The notes under the pieces: model-generated
Told to the model about the DNA's origin: nothing
Databases searched by the model: none
The model's input: only the letters and a program-made list of their open reading frames with translations
Shown here: positions 41,971 through 59,378 of the stretch, piece by piece
Layout of the letters: every line of letters begins with the position of its first letter
Position numbering within the stretch: the stretch's first letter is position 1
Source of the DNA: an uncultured Schlesneria sp.
GTDB taxonomy: Bacteria > Planctomycetota > Planctomycetia > Planctomycetales > Planctomycetaceae
Reading direction: 5' to 3'
Assembly (NCBI GenBank): GCA_903899985.1
Contig: CAIULL010000008.1
Span: forward strand, 1-64,000
DNA: 64,000 nt
Program-made: the position numbers and the translations under genes

Positions 41971-42296
41971 GGTGTCCGATTTCGACGAACTCTTGGTGGA
42001 TTCAACGATTAAGACATCGTCACGGAAATAACATTCCGCATCAAGCGTTCAGCGTTTTTCGGCTTGCGATGGAAAGCTTTGGGGTATTGTTCGCAACGTT
42101 TGATGACGCGATCGACATGAACTCACAACAATATCGCAACAACGATATCGCAAATAGTAACCGTCTTAGAATGCCTTGGCTTCCTGGTTGTTCTCGGAAG
42201 TGATTATCAACGGCTTCCGTTTTGCCGGATCATTCCAATCGTCGACCAGGAAATGAAAACATCGATTCCTTTAACAAGCACTGAATCGTGACTTTT
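41971..42296. other. Leader region of the TIR-TIR-SLOG gene with tandem 14-bp repeats
   Basis: 326 bp without a gene. At 42126-42139 and 42140-42153 lie two adjacent 14-bp repeats (CAACAATATCGCAA and CAACGATATCGCAA, one difference). They are about 156 bp upstream of the start codon, where an operator could sit. Nothing else was recognised. Confidence 0.55.
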
Positions 42297-45200
42297 CTAT
42301 TTATCGTCAGTATTTCTGGAATCGTCGGGTGGTGCACCGGTTTCGTGCCAGATGATGACGTTTGAATCCCTGCTTCCGCTGACGAGCCGATTACCACTTG
42401 GCCCGAAAGCCACGCATGAGACCTCGGCACCGTGTTCCTTTAAAGTCAGTTTCAGCTGACCGGTTAACGCGTCCCACACTTTCACGGAAGTATCACTGCT
42501 CGCGCTGGCAATCCGATTTCCATCAAAACTGATCGCCAGGCCGTTGACATTCTCTACATGCCCATTCAGCGTGAGCAGGGAATTTCCTGTCGACGCGTCC
42601 CAAACTTTCAAGGTTTTGTCAAAGGATCCGCTGACGATCTTCTTGCCATCGGCGCTGAACACCACACACGAGACTTTATCAGTGTGTTCCGTCAGGTTCA
42701 TCTTCGGTTGCCGATCGCCGGAAATCGAGTCCCAGACTTTGATGGTATTGTCCCAACTGCCGCTGACAATCCGTTTCCCGTCGGGGCTGAAGGCAACGCT
42801 TGCGACAGCATCGGAATGTCCCGGCAGTACGAGTAATTCCTGACCATTCGTTGAGTCCCATATTTTCACCGTTTCGTCCAGGCTTCCACTCGCAATCCGC
42901 CCGTCGACACTGAATGCGACACACCAGACTTCATCCGAGTGACCTTTCCAGTCCAATAGTTTTTCACCAGTTATTGAATTCCAGACCTTGATTTTGTTGT
43001 CGTCGCCGCAACTGACGACCCGGCTCCCATCGGCACTGAATGCGACCCCGAAGACCGAGCCGTCGTGAGCCTCGATCCTGATCGCTTCCCGACCACTCGC
43101 CGCATCCCACACCCGAACCGTACCATCCTCGCCGCCGCTTACAATCTGCTTCCGATCCGGGTTGAATGCGACGCTGAAAACCGTTCCAACGTGATTCTCA
43201 AGCGTCAACGTTTCCTGCCTGCTGGCTGTATTCCAAATCTTCATTAAATCGGTACTACAGGTGATAATCGACTTTCCATCTGGACTAAAGCCTGCCTTCA
43301 TGACAGTGTTTTCGTGTGCATTCAATGTGAGCAATAGCACGCCGTTTTCAGCGTCCCAGAGTTTCGCGGTTTTATCCTTACTTCCGCTAATGATTCGCTT
43401 TCCGTCCGGGCTGAACTCGACCTGTCGGATAATGGAGCCGTGCCGTTTCATCGAATGAATGAGTTTGCCGTTCGTGGCGTTAAATGTATTAACCGCCTTG
43501 TCTTGCCCACCACTCACGATCAACTTTCCGTCCGGGCTGAAAGCAACGCTTTCGACGGGCGATGGATTTTTATATGACCACAAAATGTTACCACTTGACG
43601 CGTCCCAAAGCATGATGGTCTCGTCCCAACTACCGCTCGCAACAGAACTGCTGTCTGGACTGAACGACACGCTTCTGACCGAACTCTGATGCTTGGAAAA
43701 CGTCACAATTTCACGACCATTCTTCCTATTCCAAACCTTCGCCGTGCCGTCGTCACTTCCACTTACGATCAATTTTCCGTCAGGACTGCAGGCAACACTC
43801 GTGACTGCTTTTGTATGGCCCCGAAATGTGCTTTTCTCTACTCCGCTTGTCGAATCCCAAACGGTCACGACACCGTTTCGTCCGGCGGTGACGACACTCA
43901 ATCCGTCAGGGCTGAAAGCAACGCTGGCGGCCCCCGTGGAGACAGAGGCGTCTATTTGCGCCAGCAACTTACCGTCGTCCAGGGCCAGGATGACGAGTTT
44001 GCCATCCGTCAAGCCGAATGCCATCTTTTTCGCCGCATGGTCAAGTGCGACTCCGCCAGAAAAAGGGATATCGCCGCTCGGAATCTCATGCTCTACCTTT
44101 GGACGGTCGCTGGAGATGTCCCAAATTTTCACCAGATAGTCCCAACCACTGCTGACGATTTTATTCCCGTCCGCACTGTATGCGACGCTGACGACGAAGC
44201 TTCTATGGCCTGTCCATTTTTCTAATAGTTTGCCGTTTGAGGCGTCCCATTCCCGTACCATATTGGCGGAATCACCGCTGACAATCCGTTTCCCGTCGGG
44301 GCTGAACGCGACGCTGCTTACCTCGAAACTGTGTCCATCCCAGTCATGCAGTTTATCACCACTCGCAGCGTCCCAGACAAAGATATCTCCACCGTAGCAT
44401 CCACAAACGATTTGCGTGCCTTCTTTGTTGAAAGCCACACTTAAAACCCTGTCCTCGGGATCACTCATGGTATGTAATTCCTTACCATTTGATGCGTCCC
44501 AGATCTTCACCGTTTTATCATCGCTACCGGTCGCGATGAACTTGCCATCGGCGCTGAACGCGACGCTCTTGACCGCCGCAGAGTGCCCCTTCAGGTTCAG
44601 GCTTTCCTTTCCATTCCGCACGTACCACACCTTGGCCGTCCCGTCTTCGTTACCGCTGACAATTCGTTTTCCATCAGGGCTGAAGACCACGCTGTAGATT
44701 TTTCCCTCGTGACCTTCAATGGTCCGCACTTCATTGCCATTGGAAGCGTCCCAGATTTTGATGGTATTGTCCTCACTGCCACTTACAATACGCTTACCAT
44801 CCGCACTGAATGCCACGCTTGAGACGGATTGCGCATGTCCTCTCAATGTCATCACTTCCTCGAAAGACACCGCATCCCAGACCTTCACCGTTTTGTCGCG
44901 GCTTCCGCTGGCAACCTGCTTTCCATCAGGACTGATGGCGACGCAATTGACGTAGTTTGTATGGCCACGCAGTGTCTTCTGGTTTTCATTGAAAACGGTC
45001 CAGAGAAAATCGTGTTCCCAACCGCGCAATCTCCATGCAGCGACGTCGAGACTGCGACGTGCAAAGTCAGCATACCCTTCGCCCCACGCAAGCTGGGCCG
45101 ACTCGATTGTCGAGGCGTAGACAAGGCGTTCAGCACGGTCAAGAATTTTTTGTTCTCTTACTTGCGACGCGACGGCCTCCTGCAGTGCATCGTCTGCTTT

Positions 45201-47111
45201 GATTTTCGCCTGATCGGCGTCCTTCTTCGCATTTTCTGCATTCTCTTTTTCCGAGATCGCATCCTTGGCTGCTTGTTGCGCCACCGCAGCTTGTTTCTTC
45301 GCATTGGCCCCTTGTCGGCTCGCATTGATCGATTGCAGGCCAGCAAATAAAAAACCGATGAACGCGAGAGCCGCGACACCAGCCACCGCCTTTGCCCGAT
45401 ACCTCATCTTCGCAGCGAAATCCTCCGCCGCAGCAATCTTCGACTGCTGTTCCCGCTGCTTTTCCTGTGCTTCTTCGGCGGCCTGCGCCAGACTCTTTTT
45501 TAAGAACTGCTCGGAATGATCAAACGAACCGTCGACACAGGCATTGGCCCATGCAGGACTCGGACGAAATTCGGTCCACCATTGATTGAAGAATTCCAGT
45601 TCAGGATTTCTCATCAAACCGGCGGTTTTCTCGTTCTCGGTCGCTTCCGCCAACCGTCGGTAGCGGCGACGTGAATTCTCTTCGATCTCAAGCCAGGATG
45701 GCGTTGCCTGAGTGTCGCCCGACTCCCCTCCGTGTGCACCTAACCGTTGCCATTGGCGTATCAACGCTTCATGACTGATATCCAGCAACGTATCGGGCTT
45801 CAGATCGCTTGTTCCCGCTGGCAGCGAATTGGAGTCTGGTTTCCCTGGAGTCAAAAAACAACGATCATCGCGACGAAAAACATCGACAACGGAGATCACA
45901 TCGGCGACGGAACAACCTGAGATCTCGGCAACGTCCTTGACCTTGGTCGGACGTCGCACGTACGAACCACTGGCACCCCGAGCGGCCAGACTGCGAAACA
46001 ACATCTGTGCGATTAATTGTTTTCGGGATGGCTTGTGTCCGGGGCCGTGATCGGCACTCGCAGGGGAATCGTCGGCCAAGCTGAAATAGGCTTCATCCAG
46101 GTGCTGCGACAAAGCGTTCGTCTGCGACTCGTACAACGAATTGCCTGCCGCGTTCGATCGATCGCCAGTCGACCCTTTTCCGATTGTCGAGCCATGATTC
46201 TGTGACCGTCGGACGAGGCCACCCGTTTGCACGTAATCTTCGAGGCGCAGGACCAGGCTGGCGGATCTTGTCCCGATGGCCATCGAGCCTCCGTTCAGTT
46301 GGTTCCAGATTCGTGATAACACGTGCTGGACCAGGGGCAACTGGTCTGAATTCCCTTCGGCGTCGTTGATCAGACGAGTGACCAGTGCCGGCTCGACCCG
46401 CGAATTAAAGACTTCAGCCGGACTTTGAATCGCCTCGGCCAACTGGTCTCGCGTCAGCCGGGGACACAGATATTGCGAATCGTTTAATATTTCGGGCAGC
46501 CCGGGAAAATTCGTGCATTCCCCCAGAAAATCCGTACGCATTGTCAGCACAATATAGATTGGCAACGATTTATCGTGTCCCGATGTCAGCAACAGATTCA
46601 CGAAGGCGAGTGCCTCGTTCGGGTCCTTCTGCTGAAACCGAAAGATCTCTTCAAATTGATCTGCAAGAATCAATAAATTCGTGTGTGGCGGGAGTTGAGC
46701 CTGTCGCACCAGATTCACCAGCGACTTGTCACTTTGGCGGAGTACTGCAGGTAACAGCGCGGCCGCCTCGGGAGAATCAGACCAATGAGATCCGAAGACG
46801 CCGCATTTGGCCAGTGCGTCAGCGAGGTTGGTGACGGGTGCATCGCCGGGCTTCATGTCCGCCACGTACCACTTAGAACCGAGTTCGCCCATCAAACCGC
46901 TTTCCAGCGCCGGCAGAACACCAGCCCGGACAAGTGACGATTTACCGCAACCCGACGAACCAACGATCGCGAGGAATTGACGTTTCTTCAGTCGCGACAA
47001 CACATCATCGATCTGCCCGTCGCGGCCAAAAAAAACCATCGATTCATCACGTAGAAACGGACGCAAACCCGGATACGGAGCATCGACTGTCGGCTCAAAT
47101 GTGATTTTCAT
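42297..47111 (-). CDS. nSTAND1 NTPase with transmembrane helix and 21 WD40 blades
   Basis: 1604 aa. The N-terminus has the nSTAND1 signature PYPGLRPFLRDESMVFFGR, Walker A GSSGCGKSSL (51-60) and Walker B LLILADQFEEI (146-156), followed by the arginine-finger and winged-helix part to about 450. A hydrophobic helix sits at about 574-594 (VAGVAALAFIGFLFAGL), then an Ala/Lys/Glu coiled coil to about 660. From about 700 to the end I count 21 WD40 units (LRGHTNYVNCVAISPDGKQ-type), i.e. three seven-bladed propellers; two or three are degenerate. STAND proteins are ATP-driven switches in which the repeat region senses a ligand and oligomerisation activates an effector; here no effector domain is fused, so the flanking TIR proteins are the candidates. 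Its ATG overlaps the upstream TIR gene by 4 bp (ATGA). Confidence 0.92.
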   Translation of the reverse strand: MKITFEPTVDAPYPGLRPFLRDESMVFFGRDGQIDDVLSRLKKRQFLAIVGSSGCGKSSLVRAGVLPALESGLMGELGSKWYVADMKPGDAPVTNLADALAKCGVFGSHWSDSPEAAALLPAVLRQSDKSLVNLVRQAQLPPHTNLLILADQFEEIFRFQQKDPNEALAFVNLLLTSGHDKSLPIYIVLTMRTDFLGECTNFPGLPEILNDSQYLCPRLTRDQLAEAIQSPAEVFNSRVEPALVTRLINDAEGNSDQLPLVQHVLSRIWNQLNGGSMAIGTRSASLVLRLEDYVQTGGLVRRSQNHGSTIGKGSTGDRSNAAGNSLYESQTNALSQHLDEAYFSLADDSPASADHGPGHKPSRKQLIAQMLFRSLAARGASGSYVRRPTKVKDVAEISGCSVADVISVVDVFRRDDRCFLTPGKPDSNSLPAGTSDLKPDTLLDISHEALIRQWQRLGAHGGESGDTQATPSWLEIEENSRRRYRRLAEATENEKTAGLMRNPELEFFNQWWTEFRPSPAWANACVDGSFDHSEQFLKKSLAQAAEEAQEKQREQQSKIAAAEDFAAKMRYRAKAVAGVAALAFIGFLFAGLQSINASRQGANAKKQAAVAQQAAKDAISEKENAENAKKDADQAKIKADDALQEAVASQVREQKILDRAERLVYASTIESAQLAWGEGYADFARRSLDVAAWRLRGWEHDFLWTVFNENQKTLRGHTNYVNCVAISPDGKQVASGSRDKTVKVWDAVSFEEVMTLRGHAQSVSSVAFSADGKRIVSGSEDNTIKIWDASNGNEVRTIEGHEGKIYSVVFSPDGKRIVSGNEDGTAKVWYVRNGKESLNLKGHSAAVKSVAFSADGKFIATGSDDKTVKIWDASNGKELHTMSDPEDRVLSVAFNKEGTQIVCGCYGGDIFVWDAASGDKLHDWDGHSFEVSSVAFSPDGKRIVSGDSANMVREWDASNGKLLEKWTGHRSFVVSVAYSADGNKIVSSGWDYLVKIWDISSDRPKVEHEIPSGDIPFSGGVALDHAAKKMAFGLTDGKLVILALDDGKLLAQIDASVSTGAASVAFSPDGLSVVTAGRNGVVTVWDSTSGVEKSTFRGHTKAVTSVACSPDGKLIVSGSDDGTAKVWNRKNGREIVTFSKHQSSVRSVSFSPDSSSVASGSWDETIMLWDASSGNILWSYKNPSPVESVAFSPDGKLIVSGGQDKAVNTFNATNGKLIHSMKRHGSIIRQVEFSPDGKRIISGSKDKTAKLWDAENGVLLLTLNAHENTVMKAGFSPDGKSIITCSTDLMKIWNTASRQETLTLENHVGTVFSVAFNPDRKQIVSGGEDGTVRVWDAASGREAIRIEAHDGSVFGVAFSADGSRVVSCGDDNKIKVWNSITGEKLLDWKGHSDEVWCVAFSVDGRIASGSLDETVKIWDSTNGQELLVLPGHSDAVASVAFSPDGKRIVSGSWDNTIKVWDSISGDRQPKMNLTEHTDKVSCVVFSADGKKIVSGSFDKTLKVWDASTGNSLLTLNGHVENVNGLAISFDGNRIASASSDTSVKVWDALTGQLKLTLKEHGAEVSCVAFGPSGNRLVSGSRDSNVIIWHETGAPPDDSRNTDDK

Positions 47112-48664
47112 AAGTCACCTCCGTTTCTTAGCTCGTCAACCCATTTGGCGAGACTGCGACTGTTGGCTTTTGCCAGGTTAATCGACTTCAAACCGGGAAC
47201 TTTAATCCCAAGAGGCGGTTTGTCCGACGGTTCGCCATTGCAAATGGCCAAAGCTTTAAGCTGTTTGGTTCGCCCCAATCGATCCCGTTTTGGAAAGATG
47301 CGGGGAAACGTCCGAAACTGTGCTCGAACCCACTCGGGTGGGACTTTACCGTAAAGCACGATCAAAACATCGCACTTCATCAGATTGGCTTCAGTGTCTT
47401 CGCGAATACTTGCTGGTTCACCGGATGTCAGCGTCGACGATACCGAACAATTAAGATTCGTCAGCTCTTTCGCAAGCCATTCGGTTTGCTCATTGTCTTC
47501 AATACCTCCATGGATAAAGACCGTTAATGTTTCTTCTAATGTGTCTTCGTCACCCGGCCGACTGCTGCGGATTTCAGCCACTTTCTCGACATTTTTTTCG
47601 GGTGGTGGTAGCGCGGCAACCCGTTTGACGTCCCATTTGAACGCTTCCAGAGGGCATTCAATAGCGGTTGCATTCTTCACAAAATCGAAATGGTTCGCAT
47701 CCTCAAACTCTCGCGAAAGAAGATCGGGAGCACGCCATTGAATCACTTTCTTGCCTGACTCGACAGCCAAGTCATGTTGTAAACGGACGATACCATTGTG
47801 TGCTCCCTTGAGTTCACGACCGGGGTACATGCCAAGCATTTGCACGAAGCAGGTGGCCCCAGCCAGTTCCTTTAACGCCGCTTCTTTCCAGCTTTCAAAT
47901 TCGACGGCGTTACGCCCCCCGAGGGCCACGCGGAACTGGTGGGACTCCAGAAACGCGACCAGTTGTTTTCGGGCACCAGACAGATCGTCGCTGGTTTCGG
48001 CAACGTAGACGACGGGACCGGTTAACGCCGGCTCTGGTGTGGCAGCGACGAGGTTCGACGCCTGGGACAGTGTGGCCTGATTCTGTTTTACGTACGAAAC
48101 CCCAGCCTGCTTCAAATGGTCAAATTCCTCTTTGATTCGTTCTGCCAGGTACTGAACGGCGTCGTAGAAATCGGGATGGTCTTTGCCATTGGGTTCGGGG
48201 AATCCCATGGGACGGCGACGCTTTTTGTCATCCATGATCCACAAATCAAACGGCTTGTAATTCGAAAATATCGCCCGTTTCTGCTGATCCGTAACACTGC
48301 CAAGATCGACGACGAAGATTCGTGAATCCGATCGACCTTGCTTCGAGATCGCCTTCTGAAACGTATCCAGTTCTTTGGGGCACCAGGGGGATTCAAGAAA
48401 TCCGGGCGACAGAATGACAACAAGGCAAGCTGTCCGTTCGAGTGCCTGTTCGATTTGCTTGTCCAGCGGCTGATTCTCGGCGAGATGCGACTGATCCCAC
48501 CAGGGTTCCAACCGGCCGAGTCGACCGATTGCCACGCTGAGGCTAACCTCCAGCGTTCTGATAAACGACGTCACCCAACCTCGTGCGATGCCTGGACGTA
48601 TCGCATCATCAACAAGTGCGTAACTGACAAAAATATCATGATCAAAACCAGATACATAGGCCAT
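47108..48664 (-). CDS. Multi-domain TIR protein, first gene of the STAND/TIR cassette
   Basis: 518 aa. Residues 1-190 are a TIR domain (HDIFVSYALVDDAIRP; SPWCPKELDTF with candidate catalytic Glu98). The WWDQSHLAENQPLDKQIEQAL segment is typical of TIRs next to NACHT/STAND proteins in planctomycetes and cyanobacteria. Residues 215-345 form a second Rossmann-like TIR-related domain (VVYVAETSDDLSGARKQL; no acidic catalytic motif), and 375-518 a third (TVFIHGGIEDNEQTEWLAKEL; CDVLIVLYGKV). The latter two look like pseudo-TIR or DUF4062-like binding modules. The stop overlaps the start of the nSTAND gene (ATGA), so the two products are made together. No transmembrane segment. Could sense, signal or kill through NAD+ consumption; none is shown. 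Confidence 0.85.
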   Translation of the reverse strand: MAYVSGFDHDIFVSYALVDDAIRPGIARGWVTSFIRTLEVSLSVAIGRLGRLEPWWDQSHLAENQPLDKQIEQALERTACLVVILSPGFLESPWCPKELDTFQKAISKQGRSDSRIFVVDLGSVTDQQKRAIFSNYKPFDLWIMDDKKRRRPMGFPEPNGKDHPDFYDAVQYLAERIKEEFDHLKQAGVSYVKQNQATLSQASNLVAATPEPALTGPVVYVAETSDDLSGARKQLVAFLESHQFRVALGGRNAVEFESWKEAALKELAGATCFVQMLGMYPGRELKGAHNGIVRLQHDLAVESGKKVIQWRAPDLLSREFEDANHFDFVKNATAIECPLEAFKWDVKRVAALPPPEKNVEKVAEIRSSRPGDEDTLEETLTVFIHGGIEDNEQTEWLAKELTNLNCSVSSTLTSGEPASIREDTEANLMKCDVLIVLYGKVPPEWVRAQFRTFPRIFPKRDRLGRTKQLKALAICNGEPSDKPPLGIKVPGLKSINLAKANSRSLAKWVDELRNGGDL

Positions 48665-50133: not shown

Positions 50134-50892
50134 GTGGACGTTACCGTTTTATCATCTTCGGTCGAAGGTGCAGCTCATCAGTTTGCTGCGTCATACGTCG
50201 TGAATGACACGCTGGTGATCGATGCGGGCAGTATCGGCTTTTCCAGCCTCGACCGGCAAAAAGCTGTTCGATCGATTTTGATCTCACATGCACACTTGGA
50301 TCATGTCGCGTCGTTACCGATTTTTATTGACAATGTCTATCAGCCGGGGCCGCATTGTCCAACGATCTATGCGTCGCAGCACGTTGTTGACAACCTGATG
50401 GCACATTTTTTTAATGACATTGTCTGGCCCGATATGGTTCGCTTATCGGCTGAGGAATCTCCATTCATCCGATTTGTCGTACTTGAAGACGGCAAGCCGG
50501 TACAGATTGATGGGATCACGGTGACACCGATCGCCCTGAATCATGTGATTCCGACCTTTGGGTTTATTGTGGATGACGGCACAACCGCAGTCGCATTTAT
50601 CAGCGATACGGCTCAAACCGAGACGATCTGGGAACAGGTTCGCAACAATCCTCGCGTGAAAGCAGTCTTCCTGGAAGCGGCGTTTCCGAATTCGATGGGT
50701 TGGCTGGCAGAAAAAGCCAAGCACCTGACCCCGTCCCTGTTTCGTGAGGAATATTCCAAAGCAGGCCGTTTGATTCCCGTCGTCGCGGTTCACATCAAAC
50801 CAGCGTTTTACGCCGCTGTGGTCAGTGAGTTAAAGCAGTTGAACCTGGATAAGTTGACAATCAGCCAGCCAAATCAGACATATTCGTTTTAG
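50134..50892 (+). CDS. Class-II-like 3',5'-cyclic nucleotide phosphodiesterase (metallo-beta-lactamase fold)
   Basis: 252 aa from the GTG at 50134, which has AAGGGA close upstream and begins the normal beta-strand (DVTVLSSSVEG). Longer frames run back to 49990 but are not conserved-looking. The metal site is SHAHLDH (52-57), with further ligands in SDTAQTE and VVAVHIKP. The family is the class II cAMP phosphodiesterase type (yeast PDE1/CpdP-like) rather than a lactamase, judged from SHAHLDHVASLPIFIDN and LEAAFPNSM. It lies 37 bp upstream of an FHA-linked cyclase gene and probably in one operon with it, so it is likely to hydrolyse that enzyme's product. Confidence 0.87.
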   Translation: MDVTVLSSSVEGAAHQFAASYVVNDTLVIDAGSIGFSSLDRQKAVRSILISHAHLDHVASLPIFIDNVYQPGPHCPTIYASQHVVDNLMAHFFNDIVWPDMVRLSAEESPFIRFVVLEDGKPVQIDGITVTPIALNHVIPTFGFIVDDGTTAVAFISDTAQTETIWEQVRNNPRVKAVFLEAAFPNSMGWLAEKAKHLTPSLFREEYSKAGRLIPVVAVHIKPAFYAAVVSELKQLNLDKLTISQPNQTYSF

Positions 50893-50929
50893 TTCCGGCT
50901 CGCATTAAGGTTAGAAGGATTTAATCAGT

Positions 50930-52789
50930 ATGGCCTCCGCAGTGAACATCACAATTTCTGGTCAGGATGCCTCCCAGAGATTGCTGAAGATTCTCGAAGA
51001 CCAGGAAACCGTTCGAATCGGTCGCGCCGCGAAATTGGGCTGGGAAATCCCGTGGGACCAGATGATCTCGCGCGAGCATGCCGATGTTGCCTGGGGCGAT
51101 GGAAAATTGCGTGTCCAGTGCCTGGAACAAGCCCGGAACCCGATCGTTGTCGGAGGCAAACCGGTTCGTGAAGCGGTACTCGGCGTCAACGAATGGTTTC
51201 AAATTGGAACGACGATTTTCCACGTCAGTTCGCTGGTCGCACGGACATCCGCACCTGCCGAACCGGATGCCGCCACGCACAGAAACTTCGACGACTTTGA
51301 ATTCCGTGAAGAAGAAAACCACGAAGGATCAGAACGGGCCTATTCTGCAGCAGAATTGCGAAAAGTCGCTTTCGGCAACGGCGAACGACAAATGGAATTG
51401 CTCGAACAACTGCCCGACAGGATCGCCGAATCGCACTCGGATGATGACCTCGGGGCGATGTTGTCGCGTCTGCTGATCGAGGCGATCCCAACCTCATCGG
51501 CCGTGGCGGTCGCCCACTTCGATGAAACAGAACTTCCCGCGGATGTTTCTCAGATCAATTCATTTCCGAAGCCGCTTTCGATGCGAGTTGAGACTCGCGA
51601 ACATTTTGAAGGGCGGTTTGTTCCCAGTCGGCGAATGATTCTCAAATGTCTGAAAACGAAATCGAGCGTCGTTCACGTTTTTGAGAGTTCCGATGAATCT
51701 CAGTTTACCATGAGCGAAGGATTGGGCTGGGCCTTTTGTGCGCCGATCAAAGCCGAGTCGAGCAAGGGCTGGTGCATGTATGTTTCGGGACAGGGAGCGT
51801 CGCACGGCGGCATGATGGTCACCGAAGCCGACCTGTTGGGAGACCTTCGTTTCACACAGCTTGTCGCCCAGTTCATCGGGTCGATCCGCCATGTCCGAAT
51901 GCTTCAAGAGCAGAAGACACAACTCAGCAGTTTCTTCTCACCAAAGGTGATCGAAGGACTGACAGCGGGCAATTCCAAAGAAACGCTCAGTCCGAGCGAA
52001 CGCGAGATCTCGGTTCTGTTCTGCGATGTGCGTGGTTTCTCAAAAAAGGCCGAAGCACTGCAAAGCGACCTGTTGACCTTGTTGCGGAGTGTCAGTGCCG
52101 CGCTCGGCGTCATGGCGGGTGGGATTGTCGAACGTGATGGAGCGATCGCGGACTTCCAGGGAGATGCCGCACTTGGCTTCTGGGGATGGCCGATTGAGCT
52201 CGAAGAGGGGCCTGTCCCGGCCTGCCGTGCGGCCCTGGCGATTTATAAAGCCTTTCAACAGGGTGTCATCGAAAACGACAGTCTGCTGTTTGGATTCTCG
52301 GTTGGAATGGGGATCGCACATGGCCGGGCGCTTGCGGGTCAGATTGGTACGAACCAGCAATCGAAAGTTGGCGTGTTCGGGCCGGTTGTGAACCAGGGCT
52401 CTCGCCTTGAGGGTTTGACCAAGCAGTTTGCAGTCCCCATCTGCGTGGACGAAACAACAGCCGGGTTTGCCAAAAAGTTTTTGAATCCCTCGGAAGGTCG
52501 ACTTCGTTGTCTGGCCCGTGTTCGACCCAAAGGTATGGACACACCGATCACTGTCTATGGGCTACTTCCCCCGCTGGAAGAGTTGCCAGAAATCACGCCA
52601 GAAATTATCGCCAACCATGAAGCAGCCGTTGAGGCAGTTGTTCGTGGAGATTGGCAGAATGCCCTGTCGCTCCTCCAGCAAATTCCAGACGGAGACGGCC
52701 CGAAGGCGTTCCTGATCAATCACATGAATGAATTTGGCAATACGCCTCCTCAGGATTGGGATGGGGCATTTTCGTTGGCCAGCAAATAA
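50930..52789 (+). CDS. FHA-GAF-class III nucleotidyl cyclase
   Basis: 619 aa, soluble. FHA domain about 1-105 (RIGRAAK, SREHADVAWGDG), a GAF-like sensor about 160-325, then a class III cyclase domain about 355-550. The two metal Asps are Asp366 (SVLFCDVRGFS) and Asp412 (FQGDAALGF); transition-state Asn488 and Arg492 are present (PVVNQGSRLEG). The residues that normally select adenine are changed: Lys to Asp408 (four before Asp412) and Asp to Gly481 (seven before Asn488). So it should make a cyclic nucleotide, cAMP or possibly another. Ends with a helical tail. Follows the phosphodiesterase gene. FHA suggests control by Ser/Thr kinases. Confidence 0.92.
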   Translation: MASAVNITISGQDASQRLLKILEDQETVRIGRAAKLGWEIPWDQMISREHADVAWGDGKLRVQCLEQARNPIVVGGKPVREAVLGVNEWFQIGTTIFHVSSLVARTSAPAEPDAATHRNFDDFEFREEENHEGSERAYSAAELRKVAFGNGERQMELLEQLPDRIAESHSDDDLGAMLSRLLIEAIPTSSAVAVAHFDETELPADVSQINSFPKPLSMRVETREHFEGRFVPSRRMILKCLKTKSSVVHVFESSDESQFTMSEGLGWAFCAPIKAESSKGWCMYVSGQGASHGGMMVTEADLLGDLRFTQLVAQFIGSIRHVRMLQEQKTQLSSFFSPKVIEGLTAGNSKETLSPSEREISVLFCDVRGFSKKAEALQSDLLTLLRSVSAALGVMAGGIVERDGAIADFQGDAALGFWGWPIELEEGPVPACRAALAIYKAFQQGVIENDSLLFGFSVGMGIAHGRALAGQIGTNQQSKVGVFGPVVNQGSRLEGLTKQFAVPICVDETTAGFAKKFLNPSEGRLRCLARVRPKGMDTPITVYGLLPPLEELPEITPEIIANHEAAVEAVVRGDWQNALSLLQQIPDGDGPKAFLINHMNEFGNTPPQDWDGAFSLASK

Positions 52790-52916
52790 TCTCTGCAATC
52801 TTCTGATTGCGATGAGAATTTCATTGACGGTCGAATCCTGTCCTGTGCCACGGCCTCGGAGCCTTCTCCGACACCGTGTCTTCATTTTTTTCGACGCGAT
52901 CGAAAAGCACATGGTG

Positions 52917-52946
52917 ACGGAAGAGGGTCATACGGAAGAGGGTCAT
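52917..52946. repeat. 15-bp tandem direct repeat
   Basis: ACGGAAGAGGGTCAT occurs twice head to tail (52917-52931, 52932-52946) in the 207-bp gap between the convergent cyclase and MscS genes. Meaning unknown. Confidence 0.6.
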
Positions 52947-52996
52947 CCAGTGGCATCAGAAGTTCCGATTGGACGAGATCCTTACTGCCACTCTGA

Positions 52997-54478
52997 TTAC
53001 GCCGTGATCTTGCTGCTTCCTTCGAAAACGACCCGAAAGAATCCGAGGATTTTCTTTTTGAATTGATCTGTCAGAGAATCAGACTGGTCTTGAAGGGAAT
53101 TTGTCGCCGACAATTCCCGAGCCTTATCCGCCAGCCTTCGTTCGGCAAGAGATCGACTGAGGTCATCAACCAGACCAGGGCGATGTTCCAGCAATTTCAC
53201 CAAAGCCGATTTTTCAATGGTCATAACAACGGAATTCAACGCGGCTCGGATCGTAGCGGACCGTGGTTCGCCCGTCAGCAATGACATTTCGCCAAAAAAA
53301 CGCCCCGTCTGAATCCGGGCAACTCGAGTCTCGGTGTTGCCTTCCCCGGTTCGGTAGACATCCAGCAAACCTTCGACAAGAACGTACATCGAATCGCCTG
53401 CTTCACCCTGGCGGATTAATGTGTCTCCTTGAATAAATGACTGACTCGACACCGATTCCGCCAACGCGTCGAATTCATCGTCGTTCAGTGATCGGAACAG
53501 CGAGATCTTTCTCAGGATCGCAACCCGGTCAAATTGCGATCGAAAATCTGTGTAGACCGGCATGGTTCGGGAATCGAAATTGATCAGTTTCGGAATTCCC
53601 TGTCCAACTCCTGCAAACTGCAGGCTCTGAACAACATTTGTCAGAACCAAATTCGACGCGGTCGTCGGCGAATGGGGATCCCACGGCTTGACCCAATAAC
53701 GAACGATATACTTTAACCCGGCTTCAGTCATCTCATCTAAAAGGACGACCGGTGAAGGTTCTTCGAGCACTCCGTCTGTCCCCGTCGCGGCCGCGAGTAG
53801 CAGTTGTCGACACCGTTCCACAGGAACGGCAGCGTCTAAACAAACTTCGATCTGAAAGCGAGTTGGAAGATTCGGCTGATTGTAGTTAGTGAAAATCATC
53901 TTGCCGAGAATGCTGTTCGGCACAATCACTAATTCGTTCGTTTCCGTTTTCAGACGCGTCGTACGCCAGTTAATCTCTAAGACTTTGGCGTTCATACCGT
54001 CCATTTCTCCATACATTCTGATCCAGTCACCGATCGAAAAGGGACGGTCAAAATGGATTGCCAGACCGGTAAAGACATCCAGGATAATTGTCTGCAAGGA
54101 AAAACCGAGCACGATACCGACCAGCCCGGATGTTGCCAGAATTCCAGAAATATTCTGTCGGAAGACCACGCTCACAACGCCTGAAACGGCGATCATCATG
54201 ATCAATCCGGCGACCATGTCGCGAATCAGTCGTGGGACAGGGGCACCCAGATAATCGGCCACCAATCTTTCCCAGACGAAGACCTGGACGAGTCGAATCA
54301 GGGCAAACGCGGCCGTGATCCAGACCGCAGTCTGCAAACCGAGACTGATGAACTGGCCAGCGCTTCCAGCCCCCTCGACAACTTTGGCGATGTCACCACT
54401 AAACCAAGCGGCAAGGGCAGTGCAGAAAAACAATGTCACAGGAAACGCTAGTGAATTAGTCCTGCGCACTGATAACAT
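52997..54478 (-). CDS. Mechanosensitive channel MscS with C-terminal cyclic-nucleotide-binding domain
   Basis: 493 aa. Three hydrophobic segments precede the pore region, with the MscS core FSLQTIILDVFTGLAIHFDRPFSIGDWI and the beta domain LVIVPNSILGKMIFTNYN. After residue about 350 a CAP-type binding domain follows (FRSLNDDEFDALAESV, QGEAGDSMYVLVEGLLDV, phosphate cassette FFGEMSLLTGEPRSATIRA with the ligand Arg). Such bCNG proteins are cyclic-nucleotide-gated and mostly insensitive to tension. It converges on the cyclase and phosphodiesterase genes, which makes their product its likely ligand. ATG at 54476-54478 is preferred to a TTG upstream. Confidence 0.92.
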   Translation of the reverse strand: MLSVRRTNSLAFPVTLFFCTALAAWFSGDIAKVVEGAGSAGQFISLGLQTAVWITAAFALIRLVQVFVWERLVADYLGAPVPRLIRDMVAGLIMMIAVSGVVSVVFRQNISGILATSGLVGIVLGFSLQTIILDVFTGLAIHFDRPFSIGDWIRMYGEMDGMNAKVLEINWRTTRLKTETNELVIVPNSILGKMIFTNYNQPNLPTRFQIEVCLDAAVPVERCRQLLLAAATGTDGVLEEPSPVVLLDEMTEAGLKYIVRYWVKPWDPHSPTTASNLVLTNVVQSLQFAGVGQGIPKLINFDSRTMPVYTDFRSQFDRVAILRKISLFRSLNDDEFDALAESVSSQSFIQGDTLIRQGEAGDSMYVLVEGLLDVYRTGEGNTETRVARIQTGRFFGEMSLLTGEPRSATIRAALNSVVMTIEKSALVKLLEHRPGLVDDLSRSLAERRLADKARELSATNSLQDQSDSLTDQFKKKILGFFRVVFEGSSKITA

Positions 54479-54833: not shown

Positions 54834-57800
54834 TCACCATTGATACTGAAGTCCGCCTGATCCAATTAGCGCGGAGTAGCCTGAAGCGACCTGAGTATCA
54901 ACCATTCCAAAAAGGCTGAAGGAATTGGTGACATAAGCCGTAGCACCGAGAGTGAACATCCCTAAATCACGCCCCGTGTGGTTTCCTGCGGTCACGAACT
55001 GAACTGTGGGTGCGCCTGAAAACGATGACGTGACCAGATTGGTACCGTTTCCCCATTCGTGCAGGTAACGGGCCGCGAGTGAAGGAACGACCAGAATCCC
55101 ACCCCAGGTGGTTTCGTGATACAACCGGCCACCGAAGCCGGTTCGCACACTATTGATGATTTGACTGCTCGTCATCAGATCGAGGCTGCCGGCGCCGGAC
55201 TCGTTGTAACCTTTCTGATCCAGGTACAGGTACTGCAAACCCAGGAATGGCTGCAGCCGAAGTTCATCGAAATCAAAGTTCATCCCTCCTTCTGTGTAAT
55301 GAGCCCACTGATTTCCGCTGCTGCTGGCACTGGCGGTCTGTTGAATGTTTCCGATTGTCAGCGGGCGCGAGACATTGTACGAGTTATTGCCGAAGGCATC
55401 GACGTTCGAAAGATACAGATTGTCACGGCGATGAAGTTCGTACAATCCGACTTGATAGGCACTGATCTGTGCGCTGGAACTGTCCTGGCGGTTCCCTACC
55501 GTTGTCGCGGCATATCCACCGAGCACGCCAATCATCGTATTCTCGCCCAACCATCGTTCCACACCGAACAGAGTTCCCCCCAGTCGATAATTTAATCCTC
55601 CCGCGCTTCCATCATTGGCAAAACTCCCCCCAAGGCCGTAACCCTGTGCCCATGTCGTCCATGATTGAGACACACTTCCTTGGCTGGAAAACAGGGGTGA
55701 CTGGACCGCAGGACTGCCGGGCCCACCGGTTGACCCGTCATTGGGTGGCGAGTTACTCGACTGGCTGGAAACCAGGCGAATGCCATTCGTCCGTTGTGCC
55801 ACGCTTGGTAAGGAAGCCCGCGTCCATGCCAATCCGGCAAGGCGGTTACTGAGCAATTGCATCTGGACCGTCGTCGTCTGGATCTCGACCGTCCCAAGAC
55901 TCGGGTAAATATCACCTGACAGCTGGTTTAACGCACCTGACAACTGACCGGGCCCCAGCGTGGTCAATTGAGTCAGCGCATTTGCGTAGTCTCCCGTCGC
56001 GGTACCACTCGTCCTGTCTAGTGCCGAAGCCACCGCGATCAGATTTGATGACTGAACAGCCTGAGTCAGATTTGAATTGACGATCACCTGCAGATTGTTG
56101 GGATTGTATTGTTCGGTGAAGACAATGTTCTGGGTCGTTGTGGTTGGCTGAACAAGAGCGTATTGCCCCGTCAGACCACCTGTTGCACTCAGGATTTCGT
56201 AATGCTTACCAACGGTCAGCGTGCCAGGATCGAGGTTCAAGTTCAGCTTTGTTGCGTTATTAATTTGAGCCGTCCCGTCCACAGCGATTTTATCACTGCC
56301 TGTCGAATTCACTTCGACTGCGTAGCTACTACCCGCTCCCTGGATAAAGTTCCCCTTAATGTTCAGCGGGGCACCTACGGTTCCCGGTGCAATCGTTCCG
56401 CCGGCATTCACAGAAGTGTTGCCTGCAATCAGGCCGGTCCCCATCAGCGTACCGCCGTTATTGACATCGACATTGCTGGTCACCGAGCCGGCAATGATGA
56501 ATGTACTGTCGTTGTCGATCTTCGTTCCACCTGTGTAAGTGTTGGCTCCCGAGAACGTCACGGGTCCGACACCACCGATCTCGACACCGCCTGTTCCCGA
56601 GATGACCCCGGCATAGGTACCGCTGGTGGTCTGATTGAACTGAACGGTCCCACTGTCGAAAATCGTTCCTTGCAGGCTTTTCGTGGTTCCGATCAACGTG
56701 CTGCCGCTGTTGATCGTCGTTCCACCGGCATAAGTATTCACTCCCGAGAACGTCACAGGCCCGGTACCAGCGATCGAAACACTACCGCTACCGGTCATGT
56801 TGCCGGAATAGGTCCCCGCGATCCCCTGATCGAATTCAACAACGCCATTATTGAGAAAGTTCCCCTGAACGCTGTTCGTGGTGCCGATTAATGCGGCTCC
56901 ACTTTCAACCATCGTCCCGCCCGTGTAGGTATTCGTTCCTAAAAAAATAATCGGGACCGTGCCACCGATATCAACCCCACCCGTCCCAGAGATATTGCCG
57001 CTATAGGTGGCCTGTGCCATCGGAAATTGAGGATTTGCCGTCAAAATATCAGGTACCGAAATCAGTGTCCCTGGTGTGAAACTGATCGGTTGGGTCACAG
57101 TCTGAAGGTTGCCGTTATTGAACTGCAAGAAACCATTATTGACGATATCCCCCTGCAGGCTGAATGTCGAACCGGTCAAGCTGGATCCGCTGTCAACCGT
57201 CGTCCCACCGGAATAGGTGTTGTGACCAGTGAATGACACAATGTCTCCACCACTGATTTCGACTTTTCCCGTACCAGAAATGTCTCCGTTGTAGACACTG
57301 GAAGTCCCCCACGAGTTGCCGACCGGGCCTGAGTAGATTGTCGGATCAACTGGCACAACGGGTTGTTGGGGGAACAATATCGCGATCGGATAAACACGGT
57401 CCAGACTGTTGTCAAATTTCACCATTCCATTGTCAGTAATTGATCCTTGCAGACTATTCGTATTGCCGATCAAGGTCCCGCCAACGTCGACCGTGGTCCC
57501 TCCTGTGTAGGTATTTGTACCAAACAGGTTTCCAAGTGTTATCGTCGCGTTGCTGAGGACCTCCACCTTTCCCGAACCCGAAATATTGCCGTAAAACTGT
57601 CCGCCACCACTTTGAGCAAACTGGATGGTTCCGTTATCAGTGACCTGGCCTTTCAGGCTTGTTGCGTTCAAGATCAACGTACTACCGTTATCAACTGTCG
57701 TTCCGCCTTGATAAGTATTGAGCCCCGTGAACGCCACCGGCGCAACACCACTGATTTCGACGCTTCCTGTGCCTGAGATGATCCCCGTAAACGTCCCGAC

Positions 57801-58901
57801 AGTGGCCTGATTGAATTGAATGGCACCGCTGTTATTGATCAGCCCTTGAAGACTGTCGGAATTGCCAACCAGCGTGCTACCTTGATCGACAACTGTTCCG
57901 CCGGAGTAAGAATTCCTGCCTGTGAACGCGACGGCCCCATTACCGCTGATTTCGACTGTCCCTTTACCTGACAAAATACCGCCGTAAGTGCCGCTGACTG
58001 CCTGATTGAATTGCACGGCACCGTCAACGTTAATTGGCCCTTGCAGACTACTCGTCGTCCCAATCAACTTGCTGCCAGAATCAATCTCCGTCCCACCCTT
58101 GTACGTATTCAAACCCGTCAAAGTGATCGTGGAACCCCCGCTGATCTGAAGACCACCGCCCCCTTCAATCACACCGGCGTATGTTCCGCTTGTCGCCTGA
58201 TTGAATTGAATGGTCCCAAAGTCGATGAATGTCCCCTGCAGGCTGTTTGTGGTGCCGATCAACGTACTGTTCTGTGCGACAAAAGTACCACCCGAATAGC
58301 TGTTCGTACCCGAGAACGTCACAGGCCCCGCGCCGTTGATCGAAACACCTCCGCCACCGGACATGTTACCGCCGTACGTCGCACCGGTGAGAAAATTGAA
58401 TTCCACCACGTAGTTATTGACAACAGACCCCTGAAGACTGCCGGTCGTATCAATCAACGTTCCGCCGTTGTTGACAGTGACAGGTGACCCTGCATTCACG
58501 AGATTCAGGCTTTGCAACGTCACCGTACCACTATCGATGACCAGCGGCTGGTAGAGATTTGCTGCGTCAATCGTGTTCGAGTTCCCCGACAATGTGATGG
58601 TCGAAGTCGATTTAAAATCCAGAACCGACTGGCTCATCGTAAACCCGTTGATCACATTCAGCGTGTAACTGGTTCCAGGATTATTATTGATTGTCTGAAT
58701 GGCATTGCTCAGGTCGGTTGAGCTTCCCACATTCAGGGTTTGACCATTAACAGAGGCCGTTGAAAAAAGACCGAGCAAGAAACAGGCGATCGAAGATCGA
58801 AAAAGCGTCCTCGCCTTTCGACCGGAGCGACTGAACTGAACCGCGCGGTCACAACCACAAGATGTGCGACCGTTGATCATTGGGTTCATAAGTTTTCGCA
58901 T
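54834..58901 (-). CDS. Autotransporter-type outer membrane beta-barrel protein
   Basis: About 1355 aa from the ATG at 58899-58901 (GGTGAG seven bases before); the frame stays open 44 codons further. A signal region follows a basic stretch (RSSIACFLLGLFSTASVNGQ). The passenger consists of about ten beta-helix units of 50-95 aa built on G-STLIGTTNSLQG, TIQFNQATSGTYAG and NTYTGGTT motifs (PATR-like). The last about 270 residues look like an autotransporter barrel (WTTWAQGYGLGGSFAND to the C-terminal GGLQYQW, ending in an aromatic residue). It would be a surface adhesin or structural protein. The repeat DNA is coding, not CRISPR. Confidence 0.87.
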   Translation of the reverse strand: MRKLMNPMINGRTSCGCDRAVQFSRSGRKARTLFRSSIACFLLGLFSTASVNGQTLNVGSSTDLSNAIQTINNNPGTSYTLNVINGFTMSQSVLDFKSTSTITLSGNSNTIDAANLYQPLVIDSGTVTLQSLNLVNAGSPVTVNNGGTLIDTTGSLQGSVVNNYVVEFNFLTGATYGGNMSGGGGVSINGAGPVTFSGTNSYSGGTFVAQNSTLIGTTNSLQGTFIDFGTIQFNQATSGTYAGVIEGGGGLQISGGSTITLTGLNTYKGGTEIDSGSKLIGTTSSLQGPINVDGAVQFNQAVSGTYGGILSGKGTVEISGNGAVAFTGRNSYSGGTVVDQGSTLVGNSDSLQGLINNSGAIQFNQATVGTFTGIISGTGSVEISGVAPVAFTGLNTYQGGTTVDNGSTLILNATSLKGQVTDNGTIQFAQSGGGQFYGNISGSGKVEVLSNATITLGNLFGTNTYTGGTTVDVGGTLIGNTNSLQGSITDNGMVKFDNSLDRVYPIAILFPQQPVVPVDPTIYSGPVGNSWGTSSVYNGDISGTGKVEISGGDIVSFTGHNTYSGGTTVDSGSSLTGSTFSLQGDIVNNGFLQFNNGNLQTVTQPISFTPGTLISVPDILTANPQFPMAQATYSGNISGTGGVDIGGTVPIIFLGTNTYTGGTMVESGAALIGTTNSVQGNFLNNGVVEFDQGIAGTYSGNMTGSGSVSIAGTGPVTFSGVNTYAGGTTINSGSTLIGTTKSLQGTIFDSGTVQFNQTTSGTYAGVISGTGGVEIGGVGPVTFSGANTYTGGTKIDNDSTFIIAGSVTSNVDVNNGGTLMGTGLIAGNTSVNAGGTIAPGTVGAPLNIKGNFIQGAGSSYAVEVNSTGSDKIAVDGTAQINNATKLNLNLDPGTLTVGKHYEILSATGGLTGQYALVQPTTTTQNIVFTEQYNPNNLQVIVNSNLTQAVQSSNLIAVASALDRTSGTATGDYANALTQLTTLGPGQLSGALNQLSGDIYPSLGTVEIQTTTVQMQLLSNRLAGLAWTRASLPSVAQRTNGIRLVSSQSSNSPPNDGSTGGPGSPAVQSPLFSSQGSVSQSWTTWAQGYGLGGSFANDGSAGGLNYRLGGTLFGVERWLGENTMIGVLGGYAATTVGNRQDSSSAQISAYQVGLYELHRRDNLYLSNVDAFGNNSYNVSRPLTIGNIQQTASASSSGNQWAHYTEGGMNFDFDELRLQPFLGLQYLYLDQKGYNESGAGSLDLMTSSQIINSVRTGFGGRLYHETTWGGILVVPSLAARYLHEWGNGTNLVTSSFSGAPTVQFVTAGNHTGRDLGMFTLGATAYVTNSFSLFGMVDTQVASGYSALIGSGGLQYQW

Positions 58902-59378
58902 TCGGATTCTCACCGTTCTGAAGGGACGAGAACAATCAGGATTCGCTTGCCAGCCGAACAACTCGTGTTTATGCGTTTCCACGACATTCCGCACACCGAC
59001 CTGCGGGCGGTCGCTTTCTACTTGACGATTCAATCGGGAGCAACGCGAAATCAGATTGACACCCGAAACCCGTCATCAACACCAAATCAACGCAACCCAC
59101 TGCCACAAAAACAGTTTACGGCACGACCAGTGACATTTTTTCAGACATTGAGTATTGATGTACGCTCAAGGAATTCAGAGGCACACACCTCATCCGGCAG
59201 AAGCTGCCACTCCCTGGTCTCTTTTCGAAAAAAGACAGAATCTGAAAAGCCGTTTGTAAGCCATCGGTAATCGAATACAGCTTGGTTTTGGTGAGGCTCC
59301 GTTGTAGAACGTCATGCAGATGGTGAACGCCTGAGACGCTTTCGGCATCCAAACTCGACCAATCAGGAGGCTCGATAG
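58902..59378. other. Divergent intergenic region, no gene seen
   Basis: 477 bp between the autotransporter start (minus) and the TPR protein start (plus), so both promoters should be here. No repeat or RNA motif was recognised. A perfect AGGAGG for the TPR gene is at 59365-59370. Confidence 0.6.

Follow-up and report, generated by a model that had tools for sequence, protein, structure and literature searches.

A phosphodiesterase, an FHA-bearing class III cyclase and a CNBD-fused MscS channel as a candidate cyclic nucleotide circuit in a Schlesneria-type planctomycete

Can three neighbouring genes make, sense and destroy their own second messenger? The question is raised by a locus in the window (the whole 64,000-nucleotide stretch of DNA that was analysed, from an uncultured Schlesneria sp.), where synthesis, breakdown and a channel effector of a cyclic nucleotide had been predicted to lie side by side. 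From the sequence of a cyclic-nucleotide-gated MscS channel alone it is difficult to infer which natural ligand it binds and which cyclase is its partner. Here the neighbourhood points to a candidate cyclase and a candidate phosphodiesterase (PDE), so that the whole loop could be reconstituted in E. coli. The features are as follows.

50134..50892, + strand: class-II (metallo-beta-lactamase, MBL, fold) cyclic nucleotide PDE; 252 aa, GTG start; PF02112, HxHxDH
50930..52789, + strand: FHA / class III nucleotidyl cyclase; 619 aa; PF00211 and PF00498, catalytic residues kept
51011..51208, + strand: FHA (phosphothreonine-binding) domain of the cyclase, residues 28-93; PF00498, 21.0 bits; 17/20 homologues match
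51998..52441, + strand: class III cyclase catalytic core, residues 357-504; PF00211; residues aligned to Cya2 and CyaC
52997..54478, - strand: MscS-family channel with C-terminal CNBD; 493 aa from ATG; Pfam, AlphaFold2, Foldseek
53879..54091, - strand: MscS beta-domain, residues 137-207 of the 500-aa frame; PF00924, 2.1e-16
53183..53440, - strand: CNBD with phosphate-binding cassette FGEMSLLTGEPRSAT; PF00027; cassette read from the sequence

The PDE stop and the cyclase start are 37 bp apart on one strand, exactly as in the original prediction, and the two genes are probably co-transcribed. The channel, whose ATG is at 54478, converges on them, with 207 bp between the cyclase stop (52789) and the channel end (52997); RNA folding across this junction (52785-53000) has a z of -1.6, from which we claim nothing. 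The GTG of the PDE at 50134 is preceded by AAGGGA and agrees with the 252-aa frames of three relatives (L036, L037, L038), while a fourth (L035) has a 300-aa frame resembling the window's longest PDE frame. Directly upstream of the three genes lie a TIR gene and an nSTAND-WD40 gene.

The class-II-like nature of the PDE held up well: it matches PF02112 (PDEase_II) at 2.5e-13 and 50.3 bits, above the cut-off of 23.7, and its zinc-ligand residues (H52, H54, D56 and H57 of HxHxDH, then H137, D158 and H220) are invariant in 14 homologues, as are F93, N94, W98 and D100. Among solved structures the single sequence finds yeast PDE1 as its best match (1.3e-8), and a profile of the 14 homologues places PDE1 (4ojv, 8.3e-15) ahead of PhnP and RNase Z. 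The structure model likewise resembles yeast PDE1 (TMq 0.77) and YhfI. Could the protein instead be an RNase Z/PhnP-like hydrolase that leaves the locus without an off switch? The model is also similar to structures of RNase Z, PhnP and arylsulfatase, an arylsulfatase heading the list by E-value, and the NCBIfam hits are to PhnP, RNase Z and a cyclic nucleotide-degrading phosphodiesterase, none of them anywhere near its cut-off. We nonetheless consider such a hydrolase very unlikely, given the PDE1 matches, the FND..WPD stretch common to both proteins and the repeated pairing of this gene with a cyclase. Apyc1, a class II MBL phosphodiesterase that cleaves Pycsar messengers according to PMC9117128, was tried as the counterpart of the PDE and set aside: its PDB sequence match reaches E 0.96 only and its structural match ranks below PDE1 and YhfI.

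The cyclase is a class III enzyme (PF00211, 2.7e-6, above cut-off) that keeps both metal-binding Asp and the transition-state Asn and Arg. Its FHA domain passes narrowly in the window (21.0 bits, cut-off 20.7) and is firmer in the relatives listed above, G31, R32, S47, R48, H50 and N70 being invariant or nearly so in 20 homologues. The GAF domain that had also been proposed is dropped, since none of these 20 matches any GAF model in Pfam at E 0.01; cyclase residues of about 150-345 are thereby left with no fold assignment. Across 91 aligned cyclase rows, which include two genes present twice, the metal Asp are kept in 91 and 91, the Asn in 90 and the Arg in 91.

Which nucleotide would it make? 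The base-selecting pair is Asp-Gly, in place of the Lys-Asp/Thr of adenylyl cyclases; in the 91 rows the first position is Asp in 89, Lys in 1 and Asn in 1, and the second is Gly in 63, Thr in 25, Asp in 2 and Ser in 1. Because the adenine-selecting Lys is Asp in 89/91 rows, these residues suggest that cAMP is not the default product. The best PDB sequence match is Cya2 (2w01, 1.1e-12), whose pair is given as E-G in PMC4215837; compared with the Cya2-type guanine pair (Glu with Cys/Gly or similar), the window enzyme has the same Gly second but Asp first. With Lys replaced by Asp and Gly as its partner, much as in Cya2, cGMP is our best guess as the most likely product. Caution against a firm call comes from a wider collection, in which 6 of the 8 cyclases read near distant MscS-CNBD genes carry the adenylyl-cyclase Lys; in L206's genome a single gene takes both the PF00211 and the P0002 match, and both observations point to cAMP there. 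The source genome encodes a canonical Lys-Asp cyclase on contig C82. The Asp base code offers a direct test case for nucleotide choice by class III cyclases.

The predicted channel proved equally sound, with matches to MS_channel_2nd (2.1e-16), MS_channel_3rd (1.1e-5) and cNMP_binding (4.1e-22). Its AlphaFold2 model has a mean pLDDT of 89 and is matched by Foldseek to MscS/MscK/YnaI structures and to CNBD structures. An MscS pore and beta-domain are fused to a C-terminal CNBD with an intact phosphate-binding cassette, the architecture of bCNG channels. Conservation of the cassette in 80 loci was discarded as evidence because the search patterns themselves contain it.

Put together, we favour, at a probability of roughly 0.57, a self-limiting second-messenger circuit, under kinase/FHA control, with a membrane channel as its gated output. 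In this scheme a Ser/Thr kinase would phosphorylate either the cyclase or some partner of it, and the cyclase would be switched when its FHA domain binds the phosphothreonine. The enzyme, its catalytic residues in place, would then make a 3',5'-cyclic mononucleotide, most likely cGMP. Once bound to the terminal CNBD, the messenger would alter the opening of the MscS channel. Finally the PDE, by its fold and motif, would hydrolyse the messenger and reset the system.

How well is this arrangement conserved? The complete three-gene neighbourhood was seen in only four Schlesneria-type genomes (the window's, G001, G004 and G005). In the next relative (G013, cyclase 79% identical) the PDE-cyclase pair is kept and an ABC exporter-CNBD takes the place of the channel; four more distant loci (L123-L126, cyclase 59-67%) have neither PDE nor CNBD in the stretches examined, some of which are short. 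Each pairwise link of the predicted synthesis, breakdown and effector functions nevertheless recurs in separate arrangements of relatives. Half of the PDE genes in the loci examined (31/62) lie within 260 bp of a class III cyclase on the same strand, 25 cyclase-first and 6 PDE-first, and 31/62 have no cyclase within 1 kb, some being at contig ends. On the cyclase tree the PDE linkage needs at least 6 changes and the MscS linkage 3. In two loci (L113 and L114) MscS-CNBD and class III cyclase genes sit 18 bp apart on one strand, with Ser/Thr kinases 58 and 62 bp away, and in two planctomycete MAGs (L199 and L206) an MscS-CNBD gene is followed by a strong PDE match. Other relatives have an ABC exporter, a MacB-like ATPase or a CNBD-4Fe-4S protein as the CNBD partner, so that the enzyme pair resembles a control module that can be plugged into different membrane functions.

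PDE-cyclase linkage and CNBD-cyclase nearness both exceed chance, with the proviso that loci of one clade are not independent. A CNBD gene lies within 5 kb of 8/31 PDE-linked cyclases, where about 0.29 would be expected from the genome-wide rate (4-11 matches per genome in 9 genomes). A looser scan, which added CNBD proteins at L086 and L089 related to that of L079, gave 8/31 PDE-linked against 2/36 unlinked cyclases (the 36 spread over 29 loci, in tandem arrays), Fisher 0.036, or 0.39 without the window's clade; both of the unlinked cyclases with a CNBD nearby belong to loci holding a PDE 7.4 kb away. CNBD genes thus show no clear excess at PDE-linked over unlinked cyclases, and we do not count this contrast as support. 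Across 150 family genomes the PDE occurs in 12 of the 16 with MscS-CNBD and in 57/150 overall (Fisher 0.002; 0.016 without G001, G004 and G005). In the wider collection a class III cyclase falls within 6 kb in 7/78 further MscS-CNBD loci, two of which (L149 and L151, both Acidobacteria-type records) look alike and are not independent, and 71/78 have none within that distance; about 1.15 would be expected (Poisson 1.9e-4, scaled to 78 loci, the expected rate being counted with Pfam and the hits with our own profile). The raw Poisson value of 1.2e-5 was rejected because 50/78 loci had been picked by hand and all 7 positives were among them.

Both Ser/Thr kinases noted in the window are real (6338-9649, + strand; 9805-11331, - strand, with an FHA of its own), but they lie ~39-40 kb from the locus; we therefore claim no linkage and reject them as its immediate input. 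Phosphorylation control survives through the relatives' kinase neighbours: kinase-cyclase-MscS in L114, MscS-cyclase-kinase in L113, kinase-cyclase-PDE in L081 and PDE-kinase in L076, L077 and L107. Such kinase-cyclase-channel arrangements would link bacterial Ser/Thr phosphorylation with cyclic-nucleotide-gated transport. That the signal is osmotic is a guess.

A different reading is that PDE and cyclase form a regulatory pair for many cell-wide targets, while the channel works on its own as an osmotic valve responding to the overall cyclic nucleotide level and is next door through passenger synteny. The channel is convergent with the enzyme genes rather than co-directional, and the full triplet is confined to four close genomes. 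Genes of a single cluster, represented in L056 by a MurG-like glycosyltransferase, lie no more than 64 bp from the cyclase-PDE pair in 9 loci; the genome has the canonical C82 cyclase, and the CNBD contrast with unlinked cyclases loses significance without the window's clade. These points are countered by the separate MscS-cyclase arrangements and MscS-PDE pairs, and by CNBD genes lying near PDE-linked cyclases above the genome-wide rate. On balance we hold the passenger reading unlikely, though a serious contender.

Pycsar-like immunity had also been evoked: phage would trigger the cyclase, the messenger would open the channel and the cell would die, the PDE preventing leakage. Among the PADLOC models, one for PycC hits the cyclase (1.7e-13) and those for TIR effectors hit the CNBD (2e-15), TIR and nSTAND-WD40 genes are next door, and Apyc1 sets a precedent for messenger cleavage. 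The PADLOC matches, however, are confined to the cyclase catalytic core and the CNBD (channel residues 339-466 for the effector models), and we reject them as defence evidence because they cover only shared folds. Up to E 1 the cyclase matches 24 PDB sequences, and none of these chains is named PycC. Pycsar is described as PycC plus PycTM or PycTIR (PMC11224242), whereas the neighbour here is a convergent MscS-CNBD. Profile P0002 finds a relative in 145/150 family genomes (E 1e-25), a housekeeping pattern; of the three other triplet loci, L035 alone has good-identity relatives of the TIR and nSTAND-WD40 genes, and the relatives' enzymes sit with exporters and electron-transfer genes. Gene arrangement, distribution, PADLOC and PDB matches thus fail to support membership, and abortive infection appears highly improbable.

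Beyond the self-limiting circuit of the window, we tentatively envision, with the odds rather against it, a plug-and-play system across the family in Planctomycetes: a Ser/Thr kinase would act on an FHA-cyclase, whose messenger would control a CNBD transporter and be reset by a dedicated PDE. Its cyclases would select the nucleobase by an uncharacterised Asp-based code, their product therefore being something other than cAMP, and its outputs would be swapped among channels, exporters and electron-transfer proteins.

How does the locus compare with known systems? With the class-II PDEs (yeast PDE1, YhfI and Apyc1) its PDE shares the MBL fold, HxHxDH and the PDE1-like FND..WPD stretch, but it is encoded together with its own cyclase. 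Like Cya2, the Synechocystis guanylyl cyclase, its cyclase has an acidic residue and Gly at the base-selecting positions (D-G here, E-G there); it differs in having Asp for Glu, and an FHA domain where Cya2 carries CHASE2 (PMC5995499). The likeness to Pycsar is that a cyclase of class III fold has a CNBD-bearing candidate effector in its vicinity; the FHA-bearing cyclase, the MscS effector architecture, the gene order and the wide distribution of the cyclase family set the window apart. The closest parallel to the channel is bCNG, reportedly described by Caldwell in 2010 and Malcolm in 2012 as MscS-family bacterial cyclic nucleotide-gated channels. bCNG channels carry a CNBD. The window channel, a candidate for such gating, has the same MscS pore module with CNBD, but its gene adjoins cyclase and PDE genes, while in L113 and L114 only 18 bp separate the channel gene from a cyclase that has a kinase as its neighbour.

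Gene calls on contig C8 of the 8.0-Mb draft genome, together with Pfam matches to PDEase_II, Guanylate_cyc, FHA, cNMP_binding and MscS domains, recover all three genes of the original prediction at the coordinates it gave. They lie between two other features:

39832-48664, - strand: TIR plus SLOG (LD_cluster2) protein, then nSTAND1-WD40 protein (1604 aa) and TIR protein
50134-50892, + strand: class-II cyclic nucleotide phosphodiesterase (PDE), 252 aa, GTG start at 50134
50930-52789, + strand: FHA/class III cyclase, starting 37 bp downstream of the PDE
52997-54478, - strand: MscS channel with a C-terminal cyclic-nucleotide-binding domain (MscS-CNBD), converging on PDE and cyclase across a 207-bp intergenic gap
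54834-59033, - strand: autotransporter-type protein with PATR repeats (Pfam)

The longest PDE reading frame shares 4 bp with a radical SAM gene of the PA0069 family, and the relatives' frames suggest that the true start is the later GTG at 50134. The FHA match is marginal in the window cyclase and present in 17 of 20 homologues; across these 20, G31, R32, S47, R48, H50 and N70, which presumably include phosphothreonine contacts, are invariant or nearly so. The GAF domain once proposed for the cyclase finds no support: none of the 20 homologues matches any Pfam GAF model. The PDE retains HxHxDH plus further His and Asp residues, and yeast PDE1 is the best match of its profile among solved structures (8.3e-15). 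Its structure model (mean pLDDT 79, built from 5 sequences) resembles an arylsulfatase entry, yeast PDE1, YhfI, RNase Z, PhnP and, lower in the list, Apyc1, so the fold by itself leaves the substrate undecided. The channel model (mean pLDDT 89, pTM 0.52) matches MscS-type channels and CNBD structures, and none of the 50 chains listed for it is described as an MscS/CNBD fusion.

Conservation of the three-gene neighbourhood had been named as one check on the circuit; the complete set was seen in only 4 genomes, the window's own and three relatives. In genomes G001, G004 and G005, with cyclases 91-92% identical, PDE and MscS-CNBD are arranged as in the window. G013 (cyclase 79%) retains the PDE-cyclase pair, and converging on it there is an ABC exporter that ends in a CNBD. 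G011 and G012 (48-49%) have the reversed order, cyclase-PDE, and 2.1 kb upstream an ABC ATPase-CNBD that follows MacB/FtsX-type permeases. At four loci with cyclases at 59-67% (L123-L126), no PDE and no CNBD appear in the stretch examined. In locus L079 (G165) a single strand encodes a protein combining three CNBD stretches with 4Fe-4S domains, a hydrophobic 279-aa protein with no Pfam match, a multihaem cytochrome, PDE and cyclase. In L086 and L089, too, a relative of the CNBD-4Fe-4S protein (43% identical) is encoded 2.8 kb from the PDE; cyclic-nucleotide-controlled electron transfer is possible for this type.

On the flanks, the autotransporter-type gene adjoins the channel also in L035 (the G001 locus), L036 and L037. 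In the window the nSTAND1-WD40 gene and the TIR gene next to it overlap by 4 bp. Their relatives in L035 are 56-71% identical, and L036 and L037 show none comparable; 39832-48664 is a variable island beside a conserved flank, possibly defence-related.

Pairwise links are also seen separately in relatives. Of the 62 PDE genes in the loci examined, 31 have a cyclase no further than 260 bp away and on their own strand (cyclase-first in 25, PDE-first in 6); the other 31 have no such cyclase, several of them at contig ends. A 77-row cyclase tree, from a quick search and with several long branches, requires a minimum of 6 changes to account for PDE linkage, 3 for MscS linkage, and 6 each for kinase and CNBD linkage. 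In two Planctomycetia MAGs (L199, L206) the channel gene precedes the PDE on one strand, neither locus yielding a cyclase. Among 12 family MscS-CNBD loci outside the window's clade (L109-L120), a cyclase is present in 2 and absent from the stretch examined in 10. Two loci hold four FHA-cyclase genes in tandem (L121, G117:C139; L122, G167:C413). Nine loci (L047, L056-L058, L060-L062, L064, L094) share a gene of one and the same cluster, MurG-like by Pfam in L056, no more than 64 bp from their cyclase-PDE unit, which may tie the unit to cell-wall synthesis.

The window's two Ser/Thr kinases, which had been cited in calling phosphorylation control plausible, are confirmed as genes but lie far from the focal ones. 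By profile, a kinase gene occurs within 3.5 kb of focal genes in 12 loci (raw count); another gene family is near in 13, so nearness alone means little, and immediate contact is what counts. Such contact occurs in G074 (L114; kinase-cyclase-MscS-CNBD, gaps 62 and 18 bp), in G002 (L113; MscS-CNBD-cyclase-kinase, gaps 18 and 58 bp, the cyclase from another subgroup) and in L081, 2 bp before the cyclase. Likewise in contact, a kinase gene overlaps the PDE in L076, L077 and L107; in L128, L131 and L132 one lies 0.4-0.7 kb away.

CNBD genes lie near these cyclases more often than the genome-wide rate predicts: 8 of the 31 PDE-linked cyclases (half of the 8 from the window's clade) have one no more than 5 kb away, against about 0.29 expected if 8 Mb of genome carry 9 CNBD genes (nine genomes scanned had between 4 and 11 matches). 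The contrast with unlinked cyclases is weak: 2 of 36 (Fisher 0.036; 0.39 without the window's clade), with L113 and L114 excluded from the unlinked set since they were chosen for their MscS gene. These counts therefore do not single out the PDE-linked cyclases. In a wider collection, a class III cyclase is present no more than 6 kb away at 9 of 80 MscS-CNBD loci, two being Schlesneria orthologues; without these, 7 of 78 compares with 1.15 expected, scaled from 50 genomes measured (P 1.9e-4). Across 150 family genomes, MscS-CNBD occurs in 16, strong PDE in 57 and both in 12 (Fisher 0.002; 0.016 leaving out G001, G004 and G005), three genomes with weak PDE matches only (G017, G094, G097) being scored as PDE-negative.

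MscS-CNBD channels, class III cyclases and class-II phosphodiesterases are known classes. Full-text literature searches, covering few subscription journals, found no description of such a planctomycete cyclase/FHA/cyclic nucleotide circuit, and no paper on a cyclic nucleotide-gated mechanosensitive channel together with an adenylate cyclase gene; among the papers listed by broader searches, none was titled as describing one.

Which messenger would the circuit use? Aligned to Cya2 and CyaC, the window cyclase retains both metal Asp residues and the transition-state Asn and Arg; the adenine-picking Lys position is Asp and its partner Gly. In 91 cyclase-domain rows from the loci examined, two genes counted twice (L004/L050, L020/L051), the first position is Asp in 89, Lys in 1 and Asn in 1, and the partner Gly in 63, Thr in 25, Asp in 2 and Ser in 1. 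The window's own genome also has a canonical Lys-Asp cyclase with a partial CNBD match about 2.4 kb away (G000:C82:478-3572). Lys stands at the first position in 6 of the 8 cyclases read from the seven distant MscS-CNBD loci that have one (Gln 1, Asp 1), and in the L206 genome, a 3.2-Mb MAG, the PF00211 match and the match to P0002, the query for relatives of the window cyclase, are one gene; both pull against cGMP. The CNBD's top PDB scores, cGMP-dependent kinases and then PKA, are multi-domain sums and not decisive for the ligand. Glu is the residue of guanylyl cyclases at the adenine-Lys position, with an E-G pair in Cya2 (PMC4215837), and the single change E488K confers adenylyl cyclase activity on Cya2 (PMC5995499). 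Given these, the Asp-Gly code and the fact that Cya2 is the best PDB sequence match (1.1e-12), cGMP is our best guess for the product. The window cyclase and Cya2, the Synechocystis guanylyl cyclase, share Gly at the second base-selecting position and differ at the first, which is Glu in Cya2 and Asp here.
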